A stretch of DNA of 25,262 bases from a virus, in IMG/VR virus record IMGVR_UViG_3300018080_000557, positions 1-25,262 of that record; one strand, written 5' to 3'. The notes beneath the pieces are model-generated. The model was given only the letters and a program-made list of their open reading frames with translations, searched no databases and was not told where the DNA came from. The position numbers and the translations under genes were made by a program. Position 1 is the first letter of the stretch, and every line of letters starts with the position of its first letter. Below, piece after piece: positions 4,571 to 19,810 of this stretch.

Positions 4571-4966
4571 CTATCGCACTCGCAATCCTAACGGCACAGC
4601 CGGGACCTGTACCTCGCACAAGACGAAAGGGTCCGGCGTCTCCAAGCCATTTATGTCAGACCAGTTGATGTCCGAATAGTGCACAGTCACGCCGTCGTCC
4701 TCGGTCATAACTGCTCGGACGCCTATTTTCCTGTGGTCATTCCAAGTGACGGGGATGTCGATCTCGGTGAGAGAAATCGTGCCGAGGGACGTACCGGCAT
4801 CCTCGAGAAATACCTCGTACTCGACCGTCCATCCCGCCGGTATTGCGTCGCCGTTTGCGAGCTCCGTCACTGCGTCCCATTCGACTGTCGCCAGGTCCGT
4901 GTAGATGATCTCCTGCGCCATCAGCAGCGGCGCGAGCAGGACTAAAAGAATTGCAAGCTTTTTCAT
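4571..4966 (-). CDS. Secreted small protein with Sec signal peptide and fibronectin-III-like domain
   Basis: This is a 131-residue protein. The first 17 residues, MKKLAILLVLLAPLLMA, form a classic signal peptide: two lysines, a leucine-rich core and a small residue before QE. There is no lipobox cysteine. The mature part has a spaced beta pattern (VEWDAVTELANGDAIPAG, YEVFLEDAG, RKIGVRAVMTEDDG) resembling a fibronectin type III module. Similar 'signal plus FN3' proteins occur near phage tail genes, but I cannot assign a function. The GGGAGGGG ribosome site is strong and shares a 13-base block with the holin-like gene. An exported phage protein could act in the periplasm or at the cell surface, for example during lysis or superinfection exclusion; this is speculative. 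Confidence 0.65.
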   Translation of the reverse strand: MKKLAILLVLLAPLLMAQEIIYTDLATVEWDAVTELANGDAIPAGWTVEYEVFLEDAGTSLGTISLTEIDIPVTWNDHRKIGVRAVMTEDDGVTVHYSDINWSDINGLETPDPFVLCEVQVPAVPLGLRVR

Positions 4967-4987
4967 CGTTCCCCTCCCAGGAAAATT

Positions 4988-5263
4988 TCAGTTTGTCAGC
5001 TTATCTAAGCTTCTATTGATGCTATTCAGCTCTTTCTCCAGATTCTTGAATTTCTCTTCAAGGACCGACGAAAGGGCGCGGAATTCGGCCTTGATCGCAG
5101 ATATTTCCTCAACGTTTTGATCCACGCGCTTAATTCGGCTGTTGAGTTGAGCATTCATTGACGTTTGAACCGCCGCAAAAGCCACTGTCCCGGCAAATAC
5201 CAATATCGCCACAACCGTCGCTATCCATCTTGCTGTTGCACTGTTGCCGTTACTATTTGGCAT
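4988..5263 (-). CDS. Membrane-anchored coiled-coil protein
   Basis: This is a 91-residue protein starting at the ATG at 5263, which has a GGGGGAG stretch just upstream. A longer reading from 5389 would overlap the tail hub gene by over 100 bases and lacks support. One hydrophobic helix at about residues 11-31 (WIATVVAILVFAGTVAFAAV) is followed by a long amphipathic heptad region (RVDQNVEEISAIKAEFRAL, LEEKFKNLEKELNSI) that should form a coiled coil. This N-terminal anchor plus coiled coil resembles inner-membrane spanins and some tail or lysis accessory proteins. No partner lipoprotein is visible next door, so a spanin call is not justified. Confidence 0.65.
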   Translation of the reverse strand: MPNSNGNSATARWIATVVAILVFAGTVAFAAVQTSMNAQLNSRIKRVDQNVEEISAIKAEFRALSSVLEEKFKNLEKELNSINRSLDKLTN

Positions 5264-5273
5264 TGCTCCCCCT

Positions 5274-7070
5274 TTATGCCGCTTCAATGTATTTGCATTC
5301 AAGCTGCACGCGATTGGCGTCCAGATCGATGCTGATTCCGACCACCTCACATTTATTGTTGCCGTACCAGGCGCTAGATTTACGATCAATCTGTACCGTT
5401 ACGTTGTCCATAATCTCGAGATCGATCACATGCGTTTTGGTTACCACAGGAAAAACAGGCCTGATGCTTTCCATTTCATCCAAAATCGCGCTAGCCAGAG
5501 TCGCAGCATCGGCAGCGTCTTTCAGCAGCGTCTCGAATTCTTTCTCTCGGTACGTTTTGTAGTTGTCGTGGACGTCCGACTCCCGCGACGTGTCGGGATA
5601 TTCGATATAGTCTCCGCTATCCTGATCCTTGTCGTATTTCACGATCACAGAGGAAAGAAACTCCGTCGAGTCATATTCGGCTGACGGTTCCGTAAGCTGC
5701 TCATCGCGCAATATGGTTTTTGAGCTCGCAGCGCTATTATCCGTCAGGCGAAATGTATATAGGCCATCACCCTGGACAATGAAATTGCCGAATACACTGA
5801 GGCTCATGTTTTCAATGAGATCGATGATCGATTTCCGATCTTTGATCCAAAGCGCGACGTTGTAGACTGCCGCTTTGGCCGTCGCCCATTCCGAGGTATT
5901 GAACTCTGAAGCACCGTAGGTAATATCCAGGTGGTTTAAGAATAGGTCCTCAATTATATCAAGCGGGTTGTCTATCAGTGTTCCGCTGCCATCCTTTCCG
6001 ACGCTATCGTCATAGCCCTTGAAATCGACTGTTACCGTATCGCCGGGGCTGTAATCGCTTGTGGACAAAGTGAATGTTGCGTTGGCAAGGCTTTCATTCG
6101 AATGCGTTTTCTCTTCACCTTCAACATAGACCTGAGTTATTTCCTTGATGCTGTGATACGTTGTGTCGACAATTTTGAAAGCGTAATTGGCCGGCGTGCT
6201 TTCTTCTTCATTGGTGCAAATTACCGGAGCATTCGTAATTTCGCCGTAGGCCATAGGAATTGACTTTCCGACATTGCGCGGTTTTATGTCCGGATAGGTT
6301 GTGTCATCGAAAGCATTGACAGGCAAATTGCGCGCCAGTTTTTTCCGCTCATCCGTAATCCGAACGCGAAATCTGGTGCTGTCGATTTTGTAATCTTCTA
6401 CAAAACCCGTGAAAACTGTGTAATACTGAGCATAAGTCAGATCGTCTCCGCCGAATTTGATCCGGCAAGGCTGCCCGAAAATGTTATTTTGAATCAGCGC
6501 ATCAAAATGCCCATCGTTATTGAGCAGCTCTACCGTGCCGCCACCGTATCGAATCAACCCGAAATACAGGGGATCCTTGCTTTTGGTTATGGTCGGCGTG
6601 GCCTTTATTCTGCCTTCGTAGAACACATCCGCCTGCCAGCTGTCCTGCGTAGCAAATCCGTTTACAATACCGAGCTCGATGCGCTGGAAAACGTGAGGCG
6701 GATTCCAGTCCTCAAAATGAATATAAAGGGTCGTGTCGCCGGCATAGTAGAATGATTTCTCTGTCGAACGGCAATCGGCCAGCGAAGCCGCTTCTGTGTA
6801 TGCCTCCTGATCAACCATTACGCTGCCGACGATTTTGGCAGCATCGTTCCATCCAAGATTCTGGCTTGTGAATGCCCCCTTGAAATTGCCAAAACAGAAA
6901 GCGCCCGTTTTGAAAGAACCGGAGACGCCTTTGCGATAATCGCGGATCTTGAGCATCCAGATTCCCGCCTCTTCGGGCAGGAAAAAGGTATGCAGCTCCG
7001 GAACGTCGATCTCGAAAAGCGTGATTTTGCGAGATGCTATTTTGTCTCGAAAATCAGTCCAGACGCTCAC
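5274..7070 (-). CDS. Tail hub / minor tail protein (baseplate hub-like)
   Basis: This is a 598-residue protein. It starts with GTG in a GTGA overlap with the preceding gene and has no strong ribosome site, so coupling is likely. Its size and position after the tape measure and tail-tip genes fit the central tail hub of siphoviruses. The first 220 residues are beta-rich, with repeated WxxxVxYEGRI-like segments. The central part (GYDDSVGKDGSG, FLNHLDITYGASEF) and the later DRKSIIDLIENMSLSVFGNFIVQGDGLYTFRL are typical of hub proteins that form the central channel. I see no lysozyme or peptidase motif. Sequence similarity cannot be checked here, so the name is given by context plus general resemblance. 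Confidence 0.6.
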   Translation of the reverse strand: MSVWTDFRDKIASRKITLFEIDVPELHTFFLPEEAGIWMLKIRDYRKGVSGSFKTGAFCFGNFKGAFTSQNLGWNDAAKIVGSVMVDQEAYTEAASLADCRSTEKSFYYAGDTTLYIHFEDWNPPHVFQRIELGIVNGFATQDSWQADVFYEGRIKATPTITKSKDPLYFGLIRYGGGTVELLNNDGHFDALIQNNIFGQPCRIKFGGDDLTYAQYYTVFTGFVEDYKIDSTRFRVRITDERKKLARNLPVNAFDDTTYPDIKPRNVGKSIPMAYGEITNAPVICTNEEESTPANYAFKIVDTTYHSIKEITQVYVEGEEKTHSNESLANATFTLSTSDYSPGDTVTVDFKGYDDSVGKDGSGTLIDNPLDIIEDLFLNHLDITYGASEFNTSEWATAKAAVYNVALWIKDRKSIIDLIENMSLSVFGNFIVQGDGLYTFRLTDNSAASSKTILRDEQLTEPSAEYDSTEFLSSVIVKYDKDQDSGDYIEYPDTSRESDVHDNYKTYREKEFETLLKDAADAATLASAILDEMESIRPVFPVVTKTHVIDLEIMDNVTVQIDRKSSAWYGNNKCEVVGISIDLDANRVQLECKYIEAA

Positions 7071-8999: not shown

Positions 9000-11092
9000 C
9001 GCACTGCCCTCGCCGCGATAATTACTTCTCCGTTTTCCGTAGCCTCATGGATTCCGCTATAGAGCTGCCGGCTGTCCATGTTGATCGTGAGATGCAGCAT
9101 CTTCCTTGACGCCGGCGAGTTTTGCGGCGTCACTTCTACCCTCTCTCGGCCGCCCGGATTATCGCCCACCATTAAAAGCTCCGGACCTTTGGTAGTAAAT
9201 TCGCCGCCTTTCGCCATGCCGCGTACCGCGCCGGCTGCAACGCCGGCAAGCGCCGCTGCAGCTGTAAATCCCGCGGCCGCAGCAAAGCCGGCCGGCCCCA
9301 GGCCAATCGGAGGCGGCACAAAGCCCGCCGCAAACGCTTCTGCAGCTTCGACGAGAAGCCGTTGGGCAATCATGTCGAGGATCCCCGCGATCGCTTCTTT
9401 CCCTGCACTTTTCATGGCTTCAAAAGCATCTTCCCCGCTCGAGGCCGCCTTACCCATGGCGGTTGCTATCGACACCGCCGCCTCGCCCATGGCGCTGTTG
9501 GCGCTCTTCGCGACGTCCTCAATTTCTGCTTTTAGCTTCTCGTATTCTTCGACCGTCATGCCGGCTTGCCATGCCAAGAATTCAACGGCCGTAACCGTAC
9601 CTTCGCCCATACGGCCGACGGCTTCCTCCATTTCATCTATGGCAGCGACGACCGCTTCGATTTCCTCCTCACTGGGTTTTTCTCTGCCTGCAGGAGTAGG
9701 CCCAACTGTTTCGAGCTCTTTTTTTGTCGTGGCAACCATAGAGTTGATGTTGGCAAGATATGCCTGTATCTGCGGCTGGAAAATGCCGGCGATATTGACA
9801 GCCACGTCTCCGAATGCCGCGCCGAGCTCGCCGATCGCTCCCACGGTATCAGTGACAAGCTTAGCGCCTCGCTCGCCCATATCCGTGATTGTCTGATTCC
9901 AGACTTCTCCGAAATCCTGGATGGGCGGAATCATCTGCCGATCGATCAGGCCTTTGAGGGGCCCTTCGCCGAAAAGCCCACCCCCGGAAAGGACCCAGTT
10001 GATTGCGGCCAGGCCTGCGTTTTTGATATTGCCCCAGGCGTTGTCAAAAACGCTGATAAGCCACTGGCCGAAATTCCGCATGGGAGTCGTGACCAGGTTG
10101 ACGAAATCGTAAAAAAGCTGCGGCAGCCGCACGATAGCTATTTTGAAGGCGTTGAAAAGCCCAATAGCCAGATTACCGATGATCTTCTTGAAGTTATCCC
10201 ACTTGAGCGCTTCCTTGATGATATTCACTACCAGCTGAAACGTTGCAGCGGCAATCCCGGGAATGTTTTTGAAAACGGCTACAATCGTGGTCCCGTGCTT
10301 CGAAAGAAAACTCGAAAGCGCTTCGGCAACCGGCGTCAAAAGCTCGGCTGAAATTTTACCCATATTCTTCTGCAGATCGCTGAAGGCGTTTTTCAGCCGC
10401 TCGATCTTGCCGAATGTCGTTTGGCCCATTTGCTCCGCGACGCCGCCGAATTCAACCTGCAGTTCCTTGAGGATCACGTTCTGGGCGCTCATAACGTCGT
10501 TCGCTTCCATGAACTGCTTGATCTGCTGCTTTTGATCCTCGGAAAAAGATATGCCGATCCGCTTCAAGCGCCCGACGCCGGCGATCGGATCATTGAGCGC
10601 CGTTCCCAGCTGGATAACCGACTGCTGCAGGTCCTGGCCGAACATATCGCTCATGTCCGCCGCAGCTTTTATTGCGGTCGGAAAAACATCGTGCCCTACC
10701 TGCGTGAATGTCGTCATAAGGCCCTGGGCCTCAATAACGGCATCGTTCGAAAAGCGCGTTGTGGCCTGCATTTGATCGGCGAAGCCTTTGAGCTCCTGCA
10801 TGCTGTAACCGACTGCGTTGCCTGTTGCCTGAAGAGCGGAGGACAGCTTCGCCAAGGCTTTTTCCTCTTCCATGTAGGCTTCCAGGCCGGCCTCTACCGA
10901 TCGGGCCAGCTGGCGGAAGGCATAGACGATGCCGGCGCCGGTGAGCATGCGCTTGGCCCAGGCGCCCATGGCCGAATCGGCTTTTTTTGTCGCGCCGTGG
11001 CTTTTGTCGAGAGTCTTGTTGAATTCCTTCAGCTGGCTTGTGGCCTGAGCAACCTCGCTTTTGATGGCCAGTTTCAGCTCTTCAGCGATCAT
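8996..11092 (-). CDS. Tape measure protein
   Basis: At 698 residues this is the largest protein in the cluster. It lies directly after the G/GT chaperone genes, as is standard. The N-terminal 250 residues are charged, helical and coiled-coil rich (SQLKEFNKTLDKS, EEEKALAKLSSALQ), and include the common TMP segment VIEAQGLMTTFTQVGHD. Long hydrophobic helices follow near residues 260-340, and a Gly/Ala-rich stretch lies near the C-terminus. The ATG overlaps the end of the T-like frame by 11 bases. With about 0.15 nm per residue as the usual rule, the tail would be near 105 nm. The protein sets tail length and is thought to be ejected before the DNA. No peptidase or transglycosylase motif is visible. 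Confidence 0.9.
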   Translation of the reverse strand: MIAEELKLAIKSEVAQATSQLKEFNKTLDKSHGATKKADSAMGAWAKRMLTGAGIVYAFRQLARSVEAGLEAYMEEEKALAKLSSALQATGNAVGYSMQELKGFADQMQATTRFSNDAVIEAQGLMTTFTQVGHDVFPTAIKAAADMSDMFGQDLQQSVIQLGTALNDPIAGVGRLKRIGISFSEDQKQQIKQFMEANDVMSAQNVILKELQVEFGGVAEQMGQTTFGKIERLKNAFSDLQKNMGKISAELLTPVAEALSSFLSKHGTTIVAVFKNIPGIAAATFQLVVNIIKEALKWDNFKKIIGNLAIGLFNAFKIAIVRLPQLFYDFVNLVTTPMRNFGQWLISVFDNAWGNIKNAGLAAINWVLSGGGLFGEGPLKGLIDRQMIPPIQDFGEVWNQTITDMGERGAKLVTDTVGAIGELGAAFGDVAVNIAGIFQPQIQAYLANINSMVATTKKELETVGPTPAGREKPSEEEIEAVVAAIDEMEEAVGRMGEGTVTAVEFLAWQAGMTVEEYEKLKAEIEDVAKSANSAMGEAAVSIATAMGKAASSGEDAFEAMKSAGKEAIAGILDMIAQRLLVEAAEAFAAGFVPPPIGLGPAGFAAAAGFTAAAALAGVAAGAVRGMAKGGEFTTKGPELLMVGDNPGGRERVEVTPQNSPASRKMLHLTINMDSRQLYSGIHEATENGEVIIAARAVR

Positions 11093-11363
11093 TCAGCTTT
11101 CTCGCCTCTTCCTTCAAAGCCGACAAAATGTCGATAACATGCGCCGGCTGCTCGGCCCATCCCCCGGCAAACGGCAGCCCGAACAGCTCGAAACAATTGA
11201 ACAAATCCAGGCAATCATAGAGATCCGGCGTGAGATAATCGGGAATATCGCGCCGCCTGATCTTCCAGCCTGGAAATGATTTCGTTCCTCCAACGATCTC
11301 CTCCCGCTCCGGAGGGAAGCTGCGCCAAAACTCCGGCTTTCTGTTATGGTAGCCTTTCGCCAT
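11082..11363 (-). CDS. Tail assembly chaperone T-part, expressed by -1 frameshift
   Basis: This is a 93-codon frame whose ATG lies in the loop of a hairpin and has no ribosome site. It is therefore probably translated only as the C-terminal part of a G-T fusion. A -1 shift on A AAA AAC (11384-11390) near the end of the upstream gene enters exactly this frame, adding seven residues (LRIAFHL) before its methionine. The fusion would be about 232 residues. In lambda-like tails the G protein coats the tape measure and the rarer GT recruits tail tube subunits. Sequence features (PDYLTPDLYDCLDLFNCF) fit a small helical chaperone. Position before the tape measure gene supports the call. Confidence 0.85.
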   Translation of the reverse strand: MAKGYHNRKPEFWRSFPPEREEIVGGTKSFPGWKIRRRDIPDYLTPDLYDCLDLFNCFELFGLPFAGGWAEQPAHVIDILSALKEEARKLNDR

Positions 11364-11377
11364 AAGGTGAAAGGCTA
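11350..11377 (-). other. Frameshift-stimulating stem-loop
   Basis: Minus-strand TAGCCTTTC (11377-11369) pairs perfectly with GAAAGGCTA (11358-11350) around a 10-base loop. The stem starts 6 bases after the A AAA AAC heptamer, the normal spacing for a stimulator of -1 slippage. The loop holds the ATG of the downstream frame, and the stem begins within the zero-frame stop codon. Confidence 0.85.
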
Positions 11378-11779
11378 TTCGGAGTTTTTTGAGTCTACCC
11401 TCGCATTCGCGTTCAGCAGATGATTTTCAATCTCGATAGCGAGCTCAGGAAATGCCGCCGAGTCGTACAAATCGCGCATGGTTTTGCAGGCCTTGATTTC
11501 GCCGGTATCCTTGTCTTCGGTTTCGAGATTGTGGACGTGGACGTCCGATTTGAGCGCGATGCCTTTTTTGTCCTGAATGTATTCGATTTCGGCGAGCGCA
11601 CCATCCAGATTGTCCACGTCTTTCATCTGCATCCGGATTGGCTTGGTTTTCAGATGCATGCTGCGCTCTTCGTACGAAAGAAACTTGTAATCGATCCGGA
11701 TTTGCTCCTCTTCCGGCAGATCCCTGTTGCCATTCCATTCGGGAACAAACTCTCCCCTTTTGGCGATAGCGACTCTCAT
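11375..11779 (-). CDS. Tail assembly chaperone G-like protein
   Basis: This is a 134-residue protein between the tail tube and tape measure genes, the conserved place of gpG-like chaperones. It is charged and helical (LPEEEQIRIDYKFLSYEER, TMRDLYDSAAFPELAIEIE). The start has AAGGAGG about 4 nt upstream, sharing bases with the stop of the tail tube gene. Its third- and fourth-last codons form A AAA AAC in the zero frame, followed by a perfect 9-bp hairpin. A fraction of ribosomes should therefore shift to -1 and make the longer G-T fusion. The shift is predicted from sequence and agrees with the well-known conservation of this mechanism in long-tailed phages. Confidence 0.85.
   Translation of the reverse strand: MRVAIAKRGEFVPEWNGNRDLPEEEQIRIDYKFLSYEERSMHLKTKPIRMQMKDVDNLDGALAEIEYIQDKKGIALKSDVHVHNLETEDKDTGEIKACKTMRDLYDSAAFPELAIEIENHLLNANARVDSKNSE
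11384..11390 (-). other. Programmed -1 frameshift slippery heptamer A AAA AAC
   Basis: On the minus strand this reads tcA AAA AAC in the zero frame of the G-like gene, the canonical X XXY YYZ arrangement. Both tRNAs can re-pair one base back. The stop codon follows three codons later in the zero frame, while the -1 frame continues through the T-like gene. Confidence 0.88.
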
Positions 11780-11788
11780 GAGGCCTCC

Positions 11789-12187
11789 TTATGAGCTGGC
11801 CCGGTAGACGCCATCCGAGAATTTGAAATCGAAGCTGATTGTTTGCTTGTCCTCGAGCGGAACGCCGACGCTCACGTTGCTGATAAGCGCGCTGCCGTAA
11901 AACTTGTAGGCGCCGCTGTTGACCAGTTCCAGCACTACCAGGCTGAGCGTGCCCGGCTTCATAAACATGTCCACGATCGCGGCCTGGCCGGTGTCGTCCA
12001 GGTCCAGCGTGCCGCCGGCTCGGCCGGTGTGGTCGCGCTTGGTATAGATGTATTTGCCGTCCTTGTCTCCCAGCGCGGTGTGCTCGGCTTCTCCTGCGGT
12101 CGCGGTCATTTCCCAGGTGTCGATGTGACCTACCGCCACACCGGCCCTCTTGATGGACCCGTCCTGTCCTCCCCATGCAAATGCCAT
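11789..12187 (-). CDS. Major tail tube protein
   Basis: This is a 132-residue protein with the best ribosome site of the tail region (AAGGAGG). It is rich in beta strands (SLVVLELVNSGAYKFYGSALI, KQTISFDFKFSDGVYR) and short loops, as expected for hexamer rings of the non-contractile tube. The residues GSIKRAGVAVGHIDTWEM resemble tube proteins in which a strand is followed by a long loop. The gene is directly followed by the G/GT pair, the usual order. The three enzyme genes lie just upstream, so this abundant virion protein is the first candidate for the glycan they might build. Its Ser/Thr-rich loops could carry O-glycans; this is inference. Confidence 0.8.
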   Translation of the reverse strand: MAFAWGGQDGSIKRAGVAVGHIDTWEMTATAGEAEHTALGDKDGKYIYTKRDHTGRAGGTLDLDDTGQAAIVDMFMKPGTLSLVVLELVNSGAYKFYGSALISNVSVGVPLEDKQTISFDFKFSDGVYRASS

Positions 12188-12190
12188 AGC

Positions 12191-12664
12191 TTAGTCCTCC
12201 TTGCCCTTGGCAATCTTTTCCATTTTCACGATAATTTCCTGGCCGCTTTGAAGATTGTCCAGGATTTTGAATTTGCATTCGGAATAGTATCCGTATTTTT
12301 TCCCGATCTCCGTGGTGGGATCGAAGTAATTCAAGCTGCGCTCGTGCAGGTGCCATTTGTGCGTCGGATCGATCCAAGAGTTTTCGCTCTGCCAATGCGG
12401 ATACCTGATTTCGGCCACGCCTCCGGGCTTCAATATCCGGTGGATTTCCTCGAGCGTGTCGACCACTGAGTCGAGGTGCTCGAGAATATCCAGCGCGTAA
12501 ACGCAATCAAATTCCTCGTCGGAAAACGGCCAGGGCAACTCATTCAAATCATGGATCACTTCGGCGCCCGTCGACGGCCTCATATCGACGTTGACGGCGG
12601 CCGGCATGCGCTGGTCGCCGCTTCCCAGGTTGAGCGCCTTATACGACTGCTTGGTCGATTTCAT
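12191..12664 (-). CDS. SAM-dependent class I methyltransferase
   Basis: This is a 157-residue protein with the class I Rossmann signature. Motif I is LNLGSGDQ at residues 11-18, an acidic ribose-binding residue follows in VNVDM (Asp27), then LDILEH at 58-63 and ILKPGG at 77-82, as in Methyltransf_11-type enzymes. It is shorter than typical members (about 200-250 residues), and the C-terminal substrate cap is small (WIDPTHKWHLHERSLNYF). The gene overlaps the sulfotransferase by 26 bases and has AAGGA 6 nt before its ATG. Its position with a glycosyltransferase and a sulfotransferase suggests methyl transfer to a sugar hydroxyl, but protein or small-molecule substrates cannot be excluded. There are no DNA methyltransferase motifs. 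Confidence 0.85.
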   Translation of the reverse strand: MKSTKQSYKALNLGSGDQRMPAAVNVDMRPSTGAEVIHDLNELPWPFSDEEFDCVYALDILEHLDSVVDTLEEIHRILKPGGVAEIRYPHWQSENSWIDPTHKWHLHERSLNYFDPTTEIGKKYGYYSECKFKILDNLQSGQEIIVKMEKIAKGKED

Positions 12665-13343
12665 AACACGTCCTTATTTTCCGCTTCGACCTGGCAAACA
12701 GGTAGAGCTCCAGGTCCAGCGGATTTTCTTGATAGATCCGAGCTCGCATCGCATCGGTCAATGAATAGACTTTCCGGATCAGCTTGCCGTCTATTTCATC
12801 GTATTCGCCGGCAGCGCGTTTGCGTTGCCAGTCGTTCGCGATACCGAGCCCCTCGCATAGCCAGTCAAAATCGGCATCCAGATAATCCGTTGTGGTCGCA
12901 AGCCAGCAGCGGCTGATAAAATCTTTGATCTCAGGCATCTGCCCTTGATTCTGCAGCCAAAAGCGACGGCACCACTCATACAGCCTGTTTCGCCTGGCTT
13001 CGAGTGGATAGATCGAGTTGGCGCCGCCCTCGTACCAATTCTCGAAGCTCGCATTGATCTTTCGCCGGCTGATGTCATGATGGTAGATCGAAACGAGCCA
13101 GGCGGCCGGATCCCGGAGCACGGTCATGTAGCGCACCTTGCGGCCCGGATATTTGACATGGAAGCTGCAATCCAGGCGATGGCCCTGCACAAAGACAGTA
13201 TCCTGATCCGGCACCTTCTGGCCGAGCTCGCAATCGAGATTGCAGTACCGCCCGGGCATTTGCCGCGCCAGGTGATGGATAATCGTGGATCCGCCAGTTT
13301 TGGGAACGTGGAGAAAGGCTATCAAATCCCGGGATCCTATCAT
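12639..13343 (-). CDS. Sulfotransferase (PAPS-dependent, Sulfotransfer_2-like)
   Basis: This is a 234-residue protein. Residues 11-20, LHVPKTGGST, are the 5'-phosphosulfate-binding loop of PAPS sulfotransferases. A GH pair near 54-55 is followed by YMTVLRDPAAWLVSIYHH at 72-89, which contains the 3'-phosphate-binding arginine (Arg77) and serine (Ser85). This order matches carbohydrate sulfotransferases of the heparan/uronyl 2-O-sulfotransferase type. No membrane anchor is present, so it acts in the cytoplasm, using host PAPS. The ATG overlaps the glycosyltransferase stop (ATGA), with AAGGA 7 nt upstream. A sugar hydroxyl as acceptor is likely given the family and neighbour. Sulfotransferases are unusual inside phage structural operons. 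Confidence 0.88.
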   Translation of the reverse strand: MIGSRDLIAFLHVPKTGGSTIIHHLARQMPGRYCNLDCELGQKVPDQDTVFVQGHRLDCSFHVKYPGRKVRYMTVLRDPAAWLVSIYHHDISRRKINASFENWYEGGANSIYPLEARRNRLYEWCRRFWLQNQGQMPEIKDFISRCWLATTTDYLDADFDWLCEGLGIANDWQRKRAAGEYDEIDGKLIRKVYSLTDAMRARIYQENPLDLELYLFARSKRKIRTCYEIDQAVV

Positions 13344-14371
13344 GCGATCATCCTTGCTTTGGGCCCGGTGTACTGCTCAATGATTTCCATGAAGCGCCTG
13401 GCCGAAATATCCCAGGTAAGCTCGCGCCGCACCCGCTCCGCAGCGCGCAGCCCCCGCTCGAGAGCGGCCTCGTAATCGGTATAGATCTCGAGCATGCGCT
13501 CGATAATCGAGCCGGTGTCCGGATTCGCCATCCGCGTTTTATGGATGCAGCCGATGTTGGTTTCGTTGATAACGACGTCGTCCATCTTGAAGCGCACCGG
13601 ATAGCCTTCGCGTTCCGACAGAAAATCATTCGGCCCGGAGTATGGCGTGTAGATGCAAGGAAGCCCGGTGCTCATTGCCTCGGCGAGCGGCAGGCCGAAA
13701 CCTTCTCCCATGGTCGGCCAAAGGAAAGCGTGCGCGAACCAGTAAAGCTCAGGCAGGCTGGGCCAATCGGATTTCGGATCCTTGCGCAGCGGCAGCACGC
13801 GCGTGTCGATGTAGACGTTGTCCGGAGCTTGGACCACTTCCTGGCGGCAGCCGGCAACGGTCGTTTTCATGATCAGCTGCGTTTTGCGAGCGACCTCCGG
13901 ATGCAGCTTGTACCAGTATTCCCAGGCGACCTTGATATGCGCGATACCTTTGCGAGGATTCGTGGCGCCAATCCAGAGAAAAGTGAACATTCTGTCTCGA
14001 GGATGCTCCCGCACGTGGTACTTATAGAGCCGCGGATCCACGCCCTCGAGGCAGACTTCGATCGGCAGATCCGTGTAACGGCCGAGAACCTCTTTGCTGT
14101 GCGAGCTCGGCACTACAATCAAATCGGCTTTGTTCATCGGCTCGGGCCAGGCATCCGGTATATTTTCGCCTTCATACATGGTATAGAGCACGTTGAACTT
14201 TGCCGGATCCGGCTCGAAGTGCCAGGGCGTGGTGATATGCACGGCGACGCGAGCTCGGGAATCGATGCGCACGCCGGCGGCCTTCAGAGCCTGGCAAAGC
14301 ATTTTCTGGTGAGTCGAGTAGCCGAAGTTATTGCCGATGTCCTGATAGCTGCGAGTCCAATCCAGCGTCAT
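13340..14371 (-). CDS. GT4-family glycosyltransferase
   Basis: This is a 343-residue protein from the ATG at 14371, chosen because it forms an ATGA overlap with the tail terminator gene and has GTGGAG 8 nt upstream. An earlier in-frame start at 14452 would run into that gene. Two-domain GT-B architecture is evident. The N-terminal part contains VLYTMYEGENIPDAW and KADLIVVPSSHSKEVL (residues 61-96). The C-terminal part contains FLWIGATNPRKGI and the retaining-enzyme signature EGFGLPLAEAMSTGLP, with the paired glutamates Glu223 and Glu231 spaced by seven residues that define GT4. It transfers a sugar from a nucleotide donor; donor and acceptor are unknown. Its place in late tail genes suggests virion protein glycosylation. 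Confidence 0.9.
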   Translation of the reverse strand: MTLDWTRSYQDIGNNFGYSTHQKMLCQALKAAGVRIDSRARVAVHITTPWHFEPDPAKFNVLYTMYEGENIPDAWPEPMNKADLIVVPSSHSKEVLGRYTDLPIEVCLEGVDPRLYKYHVREHPRDRMFTFLWIGATNPRKGIAHIKVAWEYWYKLHPEVARKTQLIMKTTVAGCRQEVVQAPDNVYIDTRVLPLRKDPKSDWPSLPELYWFAHAFLWPTMGEGFGLPLAEAMSTGLPCIYTPYSGPNDFLSEREGYPVRFKMDDVVINETNIGCIHKTRMANPDTGSIIERMLEIYTDYEAALERGLRAAERVRRELTWDISARRFMEIIEQYTGPKARMIA

Positions 14372-14766
14372 TCCCAATACTCCACAAAAGCATCGAACAT
14401 AAAGTGGTAGATGTCCTTCCGGACCCGGGGACCGTTGATGATTCCCGAGCAAACAATCCTTTCGACATTAAACTCGTCCATGGCGCCGCGGTAATACTGC
14501 AGCTCGTCGCGGATCGTTTTGGCGCCGTTCCGTGGGACGTATTTGTCGCTGTCGAAAATGGAAAACTGGATGCGTGCCTGGCCGGCATGGATTTTGTCGA
14601 AATAGGCCGCGGCATGCGGATCCGAGACAACGAAAAAAACACAGTAGGGCTTAGCCGTATCCTGGTCGGCTTCGACAAAATAGAGCCGCGAACCGAACAC
14701 TGTAGTCACGGCTTCCTGGGCGAGAAGGTAGTTGTAAAGTGCCTGCTCTATGAGCGTGCTAGCCAC
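14368..14766 (-). CDS. Tail terminator/completion protein (gp11-like, DUF3168-like)
   Basis: This is a 132-residue protein starting with GTG, with GAGGAG 8 nt upstream; it overlaps the preceding gene by 8 bases. It begins with a helix and the common TxVFGSRLYFVEADQDTAKPYCVFFVVSD pattern. A central QIQFSIFD-like strand (ARIQFSIFDSDKY) follows, typical of the DUF3168/lambda gpU-like fold. The family caps the finished tail tube and joins it to the head. Synteny after the gp10-like protein is right. The next gene normally encodes the tail tube; here three enzyme genes intervene. Confidence 0.8.
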   Translation of the reverse strand: MASTLIEQALYNYLLAQEAVTTVFGSRLYFVEADQDTAKPYCVFFVVSDPHAAAYFDKIHAGQARIQFSIFDSDKYVPRNGAKTIRDELQYYRGAMDEFNVERIVCSGIINGPRVRKDIYHFMFDAFVEYWE

Positions 14767-15130
14767 TCAAGGTTCTCCTCAGCTGGTCTCTGTAGGTGGC
14801 AACGATATCCCGCCGGTACTTATCGAGCGCCGGCCGGAGATACGGTTCGGCTGCCATGCTGATCGTGCCGAACTCCGGAAAATGCGCGTAGAACGCCTGC
14901 TTTCCTCCCGCCATTACATACCCGGTCAAATTCGCCTCATCGATATCCCACTTGATCGTCGACTTCAGCTTCCCCGTCCGCACGGGAACGCGCCGCTGCG
15001 CCTCCTCGGCTATCTTTGGCAGCATAATGCGCATCGTTTCGATAAACGCATGCCGAAGCGTCGCATTGGTAAGTTTTTCGGTCCAAGCGATTTTGCTGAC
15101 TCGCTTCAGCGTTACGTTTTTCCGCGCCAA
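14759..15130 (-). CDS. HK97 gp10-like head-tail/neck component
   Basis: This is a 123-residue protein with the typical gp10-like motif RRVPVRTGKLKSTIKW at about residues 45-60. An AFYAHFPEFGT block follows, and AAEPYLRPALDK lies near the C-terminus. The start codon is TTG, 9 nt after AAAGGAG; no in-frame ATG gives the full conserved N-terminus. It is a minor structural or tail-completion protein that acts between head closure and tail terminator. Gene order (connector, closure, gp10-like, terminator) agrees with HK97-type phages. Confidence 0.87.
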   Translation of the reverse strand: MARKNVTLKRVSKIAWTEKLTNATLRHAFIETMRIMLPKIAEEAQRRVPVRTGKLKSTIKWDIDEANLTGYVMAGGKQAFYAHFPEFGTISMAAEPYLRPALDKYRRDIVATYRDQLRRTLSG

Positions 15131-15442
15131 TCAATTCAGCTCCTTTACCATGAGTTGCAGCTGCACCGCATTGCGTTCATCCGGAATAACGGCCACAATC
15201 CCGTACGTTTTGCTGTTTGCTACAGCGCGCATCATGGACGTTATTCCCGATCGGTAGCGAATGGTGATTCTGGCCGTAACCTCGGAATTCACCTTGCTCG
15301 CATCCCAAAACTCGCGGCCGCGGATCGGCTCGATCGCGCCCCAAACCGTCGCATATGTTGTCCAGCTATCCTCCGTTTCCCAGGTCGAGGAAGTATCGCG
15401 CTGCTGAATTGTCACACGGTGCCTGAGCCTGCCTGCTTTCAC
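15131..15442 (-). CDS. Head closure / head-tail adaptor protein (SPP1 gp16-like)
   Basis: This is a 103-residue protein from a GTG at 15442 that overlaps the upstream stop as GTGA and lies 10 nt after AAAGGA. A TTG three codons earlier is too close to that ribosome site. The N-terminus KAGRLRHRVTIQQRD is the family hallmark, followed by WTTYATVWGAIEPIRGREFWDA and ITIRYRSGI, all typical of the Phage_H_T_join family. The protein forms the ring that closes the connector after packaging and docks the tail. Confidence 0.88.
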   Translation of the reverse strand: MKAGRLRHRVTIQQRDTSSTWETEDSWTTYATVWGAIEPIRGREFWDASKVNSEVTARITIRYRSGITSMMRAVANSKTYGIVAVIPDERNAVQLQLMVKELN

Positions 15443-16014
15443 AGCGGCCAAATCCTTTCGAGACCCAGCAAGCTCTTTACCGCAAACGGCACTTCGAAAT
15501 GCGTGCGGATATCGCTGACTTCCCGATTCTCGTAGAGCTCGGCAACAATCATCTTGATGGCTGTTTTGACCGCTTCCGGAACATCGGAAGCATCATCCCC
15601 GTAGCCGGCTATGAAACGCACGACAAAGCCATTCATGGACCGAAGTGTTGTAGTAGGCCATTCCTGGCCGTAATCCAAGGCAATGCGGCCTTTGAAGCTT
15701 GCCGTATCCACCTGGTAATAATCAGAGCTAAACTCGGTTTCCGTTTCGTCCGTGTCGTAATACTTGATGTGCGTCACGGACTGCAGCGGCGGTTTAGGCA
15801 GCGAAAACGGCTCAGCAGGATAATCGTCAAAAAAGAGATCCCATGTTTGCGTGAGATAGGCTCGATTTTGATACTTTTCCGCCCATTCGCGCGCCGCGGT
15901 AATCAGCGATTCGATCAGCACATCATCTTTATCGTCATCGATGCGCAGATGATCTTTCGCGTCGCTGACTGTTACCGGCTCGACCGTGGGCGCCGTAACC
16001 AGCTGTAGGGCCAC
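15439..16014 (-). CDS. Head-tail connector protein (gp6-like)
   Basis: This is a 191-residue protein. The N-terminal half has TVSDAKDHLRIDDDKDDVLIESLI, the standard helix start of gp6/phiE125 gp8-like connector proteins. It then has REWAEKYQNRAYLTQTWDLFFDDYP and PKPPLQSVTHIKYYD, a pattern repeated in many such proteins. The GTG start is preceded by AAGGA. The protein forms the ring directly below the portal. It is the first gene after the roughly 100-base gap that contains a hairpin, so it may be regulated separately from the head genes. Confidence 0.87.
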   Translation of the reverse strand: MALQLVTAPTVEPVTVSDAKDHLRIDDDKDDVLIESLITAAREWAEKYQNRAYLTQTWDLFFDDYPAEPFSLPKPPLQSVTHIKYYDTDETETEFSSDYYQVDTASFKGRIALDYGQEWPTTTLRSMNGFVVRFIAGYGDDASDVPEAVKTAIKMIVAELYENREVSDIRTHFEVPFAVKSLLGLERIWPL

Positions 16015-16060
16015 TTTCGCTTCCTTTCTTCACGCGGCTTGCGTTTTGGCTCCGGCCGGG

Positions 16061-16088
16061 GTCGAACCGCCCTTTCAGGCGGCTCGAT
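16061..16088 (-). other. Strong intergenic hairpin without a T-run
   Basis: Minus-strand TCGAGCCGCC pairs with GGCGGTTCGA (one G-U pair) around a six-base loop. It is the main feature of the roughly 100-base gap between the small gene at 16115 and the connector gene. No run of T follows, so it is not a standard intrinsic terminator. It could be a processing or mRNA-stability element, or a Rho-associated pause site. Confidence 0.5.
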
Positions 16089-16114
16089 CCTTGCCGATTC
16101 AATTCGGCGTTTTA

Positions 16115-16432
16115 TCAACGGTAAATGACCTCCAGCCCCCATTGCTTGGAGTTCGTGTTGGTGTACGTGAACTTCACGGCATCCGATTTCCGAAACCACA
16201 GCGGCCGCGTCGGCAGGTACTGATCGTCGGTTTCGGCGTTCATATCCTGAGCGTGCAGGGATGTGTTCCAGCGGGATCCTTCCCCGGACACAAGGGCAAC
16301 CGCGAAATTCTCCGAGGCGCCGCCGGCAGCCGACAGGTGCAGCCGAACCTCTTCGAGCTGCCACTCGGCTTTATCGAGTGACAGCTCGACGCTCATGGCC
16401 GCGTCTCCTTGATAAAAAACATGGTTTGCCAT
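16115..16432 (-). CDS. Small virion-associated protein of unknown function
   Basis: This is a 105-residue protein from the ATG at 16432, which has TAGGAG 6 nt upstream, formed partly by the previous gene's stop. A second in-frame ATG at 16396 (MSVELSLDKAEW) has an even better AAGGAG at 8 nt, so either or both may be used. The sequence is beta-rich with no known motif (LHLSAAGGASENFAVALVSGEG; WFRKSDAVKFTY). It follows two lectin-fold genes, so a capsid surface or fibre role is plausible. Function is unknown. Confidence 0.6.
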   Translation of the reverse strand: MANHVFYQGDAAMSVELSLDKAEWQLEEVRLHLSAAGGASENFAVALVSGEGSRWNTSLHAQDMNAETDDQYLPTRPLWFRKSDAVKFTYTNTNSKQWGLEVIYR

Positions 16433-17170: not shown

Positions 17171-17914
17171 TTACGATCTGTTCTGCCAGATCTTGACGTA
17201 GTCGACCGACAGTACGCCGAGACCGGCTCCAGAGGCCTTATACAGCCCCAAATGCGGCTGCGCCTTGCTGTTGGCCGCGCTGGCTGCATTTGCGAAAGTG
17301 GTCGATCCGGCAACACGCGCGCCATTGATATAGAACTTGATATCGGTCTGCGTCGTGCAATCGATCCGGAAAATGTAGTAGGTGCCGGCCACCATCGTGA
17401 CGCCGGCCGCGGCCGAGGTGTCGGTTGCGTTGTCGTCGGATTCGCAGGCTACCGCGCCGCCGGCCGGGACTTCGAAGCCTACCCGATAGGCGGACCCGCC
17501 ATCGGCCCAGGCGCCCCACAATCCCCAGGAAGCCACGCCATTGAGCGTCGGCAAAGTCGTGAGAGATAACCGAGCTTCGAATATGGCGGCTTGCGCGATC
17601 GAAAACATGAGCTCGTCGTTCATGTGCAGCGCCGCGTCCTGTTTCTGCGAGGCGCTGGTCAGCGAGCAGGCGACCAGGCCATTGACTCCGTCGGCCGTTT
17701 TAGCGACGGTAGGTGGCGCTGCGCCGACGATTTTCGACGTCCATTTGCAGCCTGATTCGTCGGATCCGCTTGCCGGAATAACGACGTCGGCGCCGATGAA
17801 ATCGTCGTAAAAGCAGATCGGGTACTGCGCCAGCAGCGTTTCGAACGAGCTCCCGTCATAAAACGCCTGCCGGCCGGTTTCATGCCAGTTGTAGGCAGAT
17901 CTTGTTTTGCTCAT
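17171..17914 (-). CDS. ConA/LamG-like lectin-fold protein (first of two)
   Basis: This is a 247-residue protein starting at the ATG at 17914, which has AAAGGAG 8 nt upstream; an ATG eight codons earlier would place the ribosome site inside the gene. The layout fits a lectin sandwich: FYDDFIGADV near the start, FEARLSLTTL, VGFEVPAG, TYYIFRIDCTTQTDIKFYINGARVAG, and a final VLSVDYVKIWQ, which is a common last strand of this fold. It follows a terminator-like hairpin after the capsid and decoration genes. Carbohydrate binding on the capsid surface is a reasonable role but not shown by the sequence. Confidence 0.65.
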   Translation of the reverse strand: MSKTRSAYNWHETGRQAFYDGSSFETLLAQYPICFYDDFIGADVVIPASGSDESGCKWTSKIVGAAPPTVAKTADGVNGLVACSLTSASQKQDAALHMNDELMFSIAQAAIFEARLSLTTLPTLNGVASWGLWGAWADGGSAYRVGFEVPAGGAVACESDDNATDTSAAAGVTMVAGTYYIFRIDCTTQTDIKFYINGARVAGSTTFANAASAANSKAQPHLGLYKASGAGLGVLSVDYVKIWQNRS

Positions 17915-17930
17915 CTGCACTTCTCCTTTG

Positions 17931-17964
17931 AAAAGCACCGGAGGAGGAAAGCCCCCTCCGGCAC
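17931..17964 (-). terminator. Intrinsic terminator-like hairpin after capsid genes
   Basis: Minus-strand CCGGAGGGGG pairs with CCTCCTCCGG (one G-U pair) around loop CTTT, and the stem can extend by three weaker pairs. TTTT follows. This is a good Rho-independent terminator or attenuator. It would let capsid and decoration messages exceed those of the downstream genes. Confidence 0.75.
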
Positions 17965-18481: not shown

Positions 18482-19810
18482 TTAGCTTCTGGCCGCAAGG
18501 ACCACAAAGGGCGAAAGCGTGTTGCTGCCTTTGTACGGGGTCAAGGCCGAATTCCAGAGAGGCTGCCCGTCGACCCGATAAACGAAGCGGAAGGCCGTCT
18601 CGTCGTAGTCGAAGCGGATGTGGATGCTGACAGCGCTCTGCACGCCACCCTTATCCATCAGCATGTACTGGCTCATATCAGCCAGCATAATGTCGCCCGA
18701 GGTGCCCAGCGTAGCGGCAAACTCGATCGGAATAACCGGCCGCCCCTTGAGGCTGGCATATGGGCTCGCTGAAATTCCGCCGGCCGGCAAATATGCCGGC
18801 ACGCCGCCGGTGCCGACCGGAACGGCCATGAGATCGAGCTGCGGTTCGACGTCCTGGTTGATAAACCACACGGCATTTGCCCGCGACCTGGCGTGCATTC
18901 TCGACCACATCTTGCTGATGTTTTCGAAAACGAGCGTGGCGGCCGTTTGGCCGGTTTCTTTGGCTACCGATACCAGGCACGGGCTGTTCATGATCCCGAG
19001 CGGCTTGCCGGCGCCGTCGCCGTTGTAAATGGCGTCGTCGACTGCAAAAGCGATTTCCTCGCCGAATCCCTGCTGCCCGATCGACTCCAGGCTGGACGCG
19101 TCCTGCAGGAGCTCGTCGGTCACGTACCAAAGGCCGGCGACCTTCTTGGGCTTCCAGGTCATCTCGCGAAATTTGGGCTTGGAAGAGGTTTTCTGGGCCG
19201 CTTCCGCCAGCCAATAAACCTGAATCCCGCCCCAGCGGTAACCGTCCGCGCGGCTGCTTTCGTCGACCGCGTTGATGGTCATGCTGTTGACGCCCTCGCC
19301 GAGAGTATTCGTCCGGCAGCGGCTGGCCAGCAGCGCACTATCGTGCATGATGGTCATGATGCCTTCCATGTGCGCGGTCTGCACCAGGAAACCGCCCTCG
19401 GACGGAACTCCTTCGTTGGAACCGCTGGCCGCACGCTCTTCGCGCGTAAAAACCAGCCGCGGATCCACACGCTGCCCGGGCGTACCGGCGGCATGCACCG
19501 CCTGAAGAAACTCTCCGAAATTGCGCCACTCCGACCTGTCTGCCTCTTCCCGTTCCCGCTCCTGCACGGCCCGCCGGCGTTCTTCCCTCGCGGGATCTTC
19601 CTGGGCCGGTTCCTGGCCGGAGCGCTGCTCTTCGATCTCGCGCGCTTCGGCGATGAGCTCGTCAAATCCGGCGATTTCCGTTTTGAGGCGATCGACTTCG
19701 CTGCGTTCCTCGTCAGTGTAGCCGCGGCTTTCCGCAGTCACTTTGTCGAGGCTCTCCTGGCGTTTCCGAAGCAGCTCGTCTTTTTTTCGAAGCAAAAGTC
19801 GTATATCCAC
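18482..19810 (-). CDS. Major capsid protein, HK97 fold, with delta domain
   Basis: This is a 442-residue protein with a GTG start and AGGAGG 6 nt upstream. Residues 1-95 are a highly charged coiled coil (KKDELLRKRQESLDKV, EEERRRAV-like segments), the delta scaffolding domain normally removed by the prohead protease. The mature HK97-fold part begins near 115-130 (ASGSNEGVPSEGGFLV), a typical start of the mature shell protein. It has the characteristic DDAIYNGDGAGKPLGIMNS, NAVWFINQDVEPQL and GRPVIPIEF, IMLADMSQYML blocks. It forms the icosahedral shell. Gene order after the protease is standard. Confidence 0.95.
   Translation of the reverse strand: MDIRLLLRKKDELLRKRQESLDKVTAESRGYTDEERSEVDRLKTEIAGFDELIAEAREIEEQRSGQEPAQEDPAREERRRAVQEREREEADRSEWRNFGEFLQAVHAAGTPGQRVDPRLVFTREERAASGSNEGVPSEGGFLVQTAHMEGIMTIMHDSALLASRCRTNTLGEGVNSMTINAVDESSRADGYRWGGIQVYWLAEAAQKTSSKPKFREMTWKPKKVAGLWYVTDELLQDASSLESIGQQGFGEEIAFAVDDAIYNGDGAGKPLGIMNSPCLVSVAKETGQTAATLVFENISKMWSRMHARSRANAVWFINQDVEPQLDLMAVPVGTGGVPAYLPAGGISASPYASLKGRPVIPIEFAATLGTSGDIMLADMSQYMLMDKGGVQSAVSIHIRFDYDETAFRFVYRVDGQPLWNSALTPYKGSNTLSPFVVLAARS

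Follow-up and report, generated by a model that had tools for sequence, protein, structure and literature searches.

Gene organization at the terminator-tube junction

What is the role of three enzyme genes that lie between tail terminator and tail tube in a phage, and what do their products modify? The window, that is, the whole stretch of 25,262 nucleotides that we analysed, is a siphophage-type contig with genes for TerS, TerL, portal, protease, HK97 capsid protein, connectors, tail terminator, tube, chaperones and tape measure. Its terminator-tube junction is split on the minus strand (12191-14371) by the genes of a glycosyltransferase (GT), a predicted sulfotransferase (ST) and a methyltransferase (MT), whose coordinates are given in Table 1.

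The preliminary description of this DNA had placed the three genes here, had named a set of motifs in their products and had taken terminator and tube genes to be neighbours as a rule. We found all the genes and all the motifs, and the profile searches agreed with the assignments. The usual adjacency was observed in an annotated relative, a Desulfofustis phage, where the major tail gene comes directly after the terminator; it nearly holds in the relative L009, with only tail-type genes at the junction. Coupling of the genes to each other and their expression together with the virion genes, which had also been claimed, were borne out by the local sequence. The overlaps are 4 bases (terminator and GT), 4 bases (GT and ST) and 26 bases (ST and MT), with a gap of 3 bases from MT to the tube gene. 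An SD-like sequence is located 5' of GT, ST and MT alike, and no terminator-like site was found on the coding strand within 11000-16200.

The GC content of GT, ST and MT resembles that of the neighbouring genes. A second contig from the same sample, L004, also has the GT-ST-MT block; therefore, the insertion is not an accident of assembly.

Table 1. Positions of the cassette genes, of their structural neighbours and of related or accompanying genes in other viral loci (L numbers).
Feature	Locus	Coordinates	Strand	Evidence
GT, GT4-family glycosyltransferase, 343 aa, cassette anchor	window	13340..14371	minus	Pfam, phrog_2170, EX7E
ST, predicted PAPS-dependent sulfotransferase, 234 aa, heparan-sulfate 2-O/6-O-sulfotransferase-like	window	12639..13343	minus	Sulfotransfer_2, phrog_3347, PDB profile, AF2 model
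MT, class I SAM-dependent methyltransferase, 157 aa	window	12191..12664	minus	Methyltransf_11
Tail terminator, upstream flank, ATGA overlap with GT	window	14368..14766	minus	PF11367 1.6e-4, phrog_78 1.3e-4
Tail tube (major tail) protein, downstream flank, candidate acceptor	window	11789..12187	minus	phrog_10528 1.6e-6
Major capsid protein, HK97 type, other candidate acceptor	window	18482..19810	minus	phrog_10 3e-42
Concanavalin/laminin-G-like protein	window	17171-17938
Concanavalin/laminin-G-like protein	L008	11803-12558
Tape measure, in two frames	L004	5123-7215
MT fused to GT-like domain	L076	4373-5524
MT fused to GT-like domain	L077	2151-3302
Transglutaminase-like protein	L102	1064-1513
Radical-SAM/SPASM enzyme	L059	10622-11431
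Radical-SAM/SPASM enzyme	L099	8829-9647
Radical-SAM/SPASM enzyme	L102	2151-2972
Radical-SAM/SPASM enzyme	L103	5968-6783
Radical-SAM/SPASM enzyme	L105	4708-5514
Radical-SAM/SPASM enzyme	L115	5936-6742
Radical-SAM/SPASM enzyme	L126	7771-8574
Small zinc-ribbon protein	L128	2371-2607
Small zinc-ribbon protein	L129	7403-7681
Small zinc-ribbon protein	L132	7408-7665
Small zinc-ribbon protein	L139	7048-7239
Small zinc-ribbon protein	L100	6838-7008
Small zinc-ribbon protein	L118	5859-6098

The glycosyltransferase family in phages

The GT had Pfam matches above cut-off to Glycos_transf_1/GT4 (4e-9), to Glyco_trans_1_4 and to GT4-conflict (PF20706, 8e-10, the top match by E-value), and it matched the glycosyltransferase family phrog_2170 with an E-value of 7e-27. 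The EX7E residues, E223 and E231, were invariant in an alignment of 11 family members. Judged by the domain matches and the EX7E motif together, the protein is a GT4 glycosyltransferase.

With GT alone as bait, a search of 2.9 million viral contigs yielded 80 viral loci, which made 72 clusters (at 90% identity, second copies counted). Head or tail genes were present in the same locus in 64 of the 72 clusters and within 2 kb in 59 of them; the eight clusters with no such genes comprise the family's most distant members and a single short contig. Two slots are commonly used, one leading from capsid to adaptor and the other from terminator to tube. The slot after the capsid gene was occupied in 37 clusters, the terminator-tube slot in 10 clusters with both neighbours recognised and, probably, in five more. 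The window GT forms a clade with those of L139, L129, L128 and L132 (support 100/99), and all five are in the terminator-tube slot. Taken together, the tree and the slot positions indicate that the family has stayed among structural genes through deep divergence and has seldom changed slot. In cellular genomes a single relative was detected, L112, on a phage-like contig of a bacterial MAG.

The head-tail adaptor was also used as bait and gave 45 readable relatives. Of these, 6 contained at least one of the glycan-type enzymes looked for, and one (L059) had this GT4. Since most of the adaptor relatives have no cassette, it is a dispensable, accessory element.

The sulfotransferase and the methyltransferase

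Against Sulfotransfer_2 the ST scored 19.8 bits (9.6e-4), just below the Pfam gathering score of 22, and its relative in L145 scored 24.2 bits, above the cut-off. The PAPS motifs KTGGST and LRDP are present. A profile of seven STs, searched against PDB, matched a heparan sulfate (HS) 6-O-sulfotransferase with an E-value of 2.5e-9. An AF2 model made from 7 sequences was of middling confidence (pLDDT 74, pTM 0.78, compared to a pLDDT of 43 with 3 sequences). This model aligned with HS2ST at Z 16.3 (rmsd 3.2 Å over 210 residues) and with HS6ST at Z 12.6, compared to Z of 9.8 or less for the small-molecule SULTs. The preliminary description had asked for a structure comparison that could show whether the enzyme sits among those acting on carbohydrates; in the AF2 comparison it does.

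The ST is thus predicted to be a carbohydrate-type sulfotransferase with a fold closest to the HS 2-O- and 6-O-sulfotransferases, with which it shares the PAPS-binding motifs, the fold, His55 and the RDP motif. It differs from them in being soluble and smaller, and the identity is 18-24%. Residues G17, T20, H55, R77, D78, P79 and S85 were invariant in six full-length STs, while K15 is Arg in one; H55 is a candidate catalytic base by analogy with the known HS enzymes.

Close relatives of the ST were not found by tblastn in 50,697 INPHARED phage records. A pattern scan of GTDB gave no close relatives either, and plasmids gave partial, weak matches only. Sulfotransferases of the same superfamily are encoded by phages (phrog_3347, as well as BFVD entries of cyanophages and of uncultured Caudovirales). 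What phage sulfotransferases do has been described as unclear (PMC10580990).

The MT matched Methyltransf_11 (1.4e-10) and has the GxGxG-like SAM motif LNLGSGD. Profile and motif together identify it as a class I SAM methyltransferase. The position of its orthologs directly after GT and the fusion of a family member to a GT-like domain (see below) make it a probable sugar O-methyltransferase. Its matches in PDB included a glucose O-methyltransferase among many others.

Variable partners of the glycosyltransferase

GT without ST or MT was the commonest state among the GT loci. Around the constant GT we observed a variable set of partners, namely ST, MT, a radical-SAM/SPASM enzyme and a small zinc-ribbon protein. 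The preliminary description had raised the question of whether the three-gene block is gained or lost as a unit between terminator and tube. The idea of a trio travelling as one unit was rejected, as GT stays and ST and MT come and go.

STs accompany GT in L102, L115, L126, L130, L139 and L145. The order is terminator-radical SAM-ST-GT-tube in L115 and GT-transglutaminase-like-ST-radical SAM in L102, while in L139 the ST is apart from GT. With ST alone as bait we recovered two viral contigs other than the window itself, both with this GT4. In L145 the order is terminator-GT-MT-ST-tube, where the MT is unrelated to that of the window. Another methyltransferase and another order in the same slot indicate that the GT, MT and ST activities were assembled independently.

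The MT of the window has orthologs (42-45% identity) in L128, L129 and L132, which share the order terminator-GT-MT-zinc ribbon-tube. MT alone as bait led to L005, in which a GT9-like ORF (a reading made without a profile match) and an MT lie between a probable terminator and a tube-sized gene. In L076 and L077 an MT is fused to a GT-like domain and is located upstream of the adaptor.

The partner seen most often with the structural-operon GT4 is the radical-SAM/SPASM enzyme of ~270 aa, which is absent from the window phage. Among solved structures its profile was nearest to BtrN, an aminocyclitol dehydrogenase. Neither for this enzyme nor for the ST were relatives found in cultured phages.

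The transglutaminase-like protein of L102 is positioned between GT and ST. The small zinc-ribbon protein repeatedly adjoins GT in both slots, and the window has none; it is possibly a scaffold or a further member of the cassette.

Likely function of the cassette

The best explanation of these observations, to which we assign a probability of roughly 0.6, is that a virion protein is glycosylated in the cytoplasm late in infection and that the glycan is tailored by sulfation and methylation. A virion glycan had been proposed in the preliminary description, and that part of it gained strength from the linkage of the GT family to head and tail genes, from the nearness of the ST to carbohydrate sulfotransferases and from the fusion of the MT family to a GT-like domain.

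GT, ST and MT would be translated late in infection from the head-tail transcript. In the cytoplasm, the soluble GT4 would transfer a sugar from a host nucleotide-sugar to a virion protein made in large amounts; the likeliest acceptor is the tail tube, whose gene comes next, or the major capsid protein. These two are the prime acceptor candidates because the tube gene is adjacent in the terminator-tube slot and the capsid gene in the other slot. The ST would then put sulfate from host PAPS on a sugar hydroxyl, and the MT would methylate a different position of the sugar, with SAM as donor. The resulting particle would display a glycan that is small, methylated and negatively charged and that may serve in shielding, adsorption or stability. 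In this scheme we infer the catalytic activity, the acceptor protein, the order of the reactions and the benefit.

Several points count against virion glycosylation. A place next to structural genes does not tell which protein is the acceptor, and the cassette is dispensable, as most adaptor relatives show. The known virion GTs (those of Che8) are of other families and are located at the genome end, the top Pfam model of GT by E-value is named for conflict systems, and the ST model has middling confidence. An alignment of tail tube proteins (26-33% identity) had no marker of a modified residue.

Phages alter host surface sugars, and the cassette could act late on a glycan of the host surface (LPS, capsule, teichoic or S-layer sugar), for instance so that released progeny are kept off debris or competitors are excluded. 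Enzymes of the GT, MT and ST types would suit surface polysaccharides as well, and both phrog_2170 and phrog_3347 are filed as morons. However, GT, ST and MT had no membrane segment (maximum KD19 of 0.8), and the cassette has neither a flippase nor a lipid-carrier GT. The membrane GT and flippase of a serotype-conversion (gtr) type locus were not found here, the neighbours being head and tail genes, and the GT family as a whole is found inside late head-tail genes, not in a conversion locus. Late expression would also leave little time to remodel the surface. Given the lack of lipid-carrier and membrane components and the embedding of the genes in a late operon, we consider modification of the host surface less likely than that of a virion protein.

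Modification of a virion protein by GT could also be combined with action of ST, MT or both elsewhere, with a glycan that is neither sulfated nor methylated. Such a division of labour would fit the dispensability of ST and MT, which are missing from most GT loci, and the separation of ST from GT in L139. It accords poorly with the repeated independent linkage of ST and of MT to GT, with the MT-GT-like fusion and with the carbohydrate-type model of the ST, and we give it rather low odds. Least probable is modification of phage DNA or of a host small molecule or protein in counter-defence, with the structural slot as a permissive landing site for morons: the GT4-conflict match and the unrelated inserts in the same region of relatives (for example, the transglutaminase-like protein) speak for it, but the two-slot placement is conserved across wide divergence, an HS-type ST with an MT suits a glycan better than DNA, and no base-hypermodification gene was recognised in the 25 kb window of this incomplete genome.

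Glycosylation of a virion protein thus stays the preferred reading. The recurrence of phage relatives of the set among head and tail genes suggests that some phages have customised, possibly sulfated sugar coats. A more far-reaching version holds that there is a widespread modular virion-glycan system, with one GT4 family, interchangeable tailoring by ST, MT and radical-SAM enzymes and two fixed siphophage slots, and that the tube or capsid glycan of the window virion is sulfated and methylated, which would make it the first sulfated bacteriophage virion. We put this version forward tentatively, at a little under even odds.

Comparison with known systems

Virion glycosylation is documented in a few mycobacteriophages. 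In Che8 and Corndog the capsid and tail tube are reported to be glycosylated by phage GTs, and in cluster O mycobacteriophages an O-methyltransferase is located beside the virion GTs (Freeman et al. 2023, via PMC12363180 and PMC11600133). Phage-encoded GTs together with an O-methyltransferase are what these systems and the window cassette have in common; for example, gp108 of Che8 is a GT2 fused to a TylF-like O-MT. On the other hand, the Che8 GTs (GT2 and GT25) had no detectable relation to the window GT4 (hhalign probability of 0.1-0.2 against gp108 and gp110). They are located at the right end of the genome, whereas the window GT is among structural genes, and no sulfotransferase was present among the Che8 genes read at that end. 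The two systems may work alike, with an analogous predicted function, but they are of separate lineages, and the window cassette is not a member of the Che8 system by descent.

The Streptomyces phages Phredrick and NootNoot have a GT4 with ~25% identity to the window GT over most of its length. There the gene adjoins ribonucleotide reductase genes upstream of the portal gene and has no ST, MT or radical SAM beside it.

The literature searched, largely outside subscription journals, contained no account of sulfation of phage virions. The ST and MT repeatedly tied to a structural-operon GT offer a concrete target, the tube and capsid proteins of defined phages, for the open question of what phage sulfotransferases do. 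This linkage also predicts that coats tailored in different ways occur in dozens of uncultured phages.

Additional observations on the window phage

The window and L004 are 99.8% identical as far as the hub gene and thereafter have ~60% protein identity (window 4571-5274 compared to L004 10825-11600). This divergence 3' of the tail genes points to recombination or diversification. The tape measure gene of L004 is in two frames compared to the window copy, due to either a sequencing error or a true frameshift.

A concanavalin/laminin-G-like protein, possibly a capsid decoration protein, adjoins the capsid genes in the window. It has 73% identity to one in L008, a phage with a capsid protein of only 50% identity, which indicates a recent exchange.
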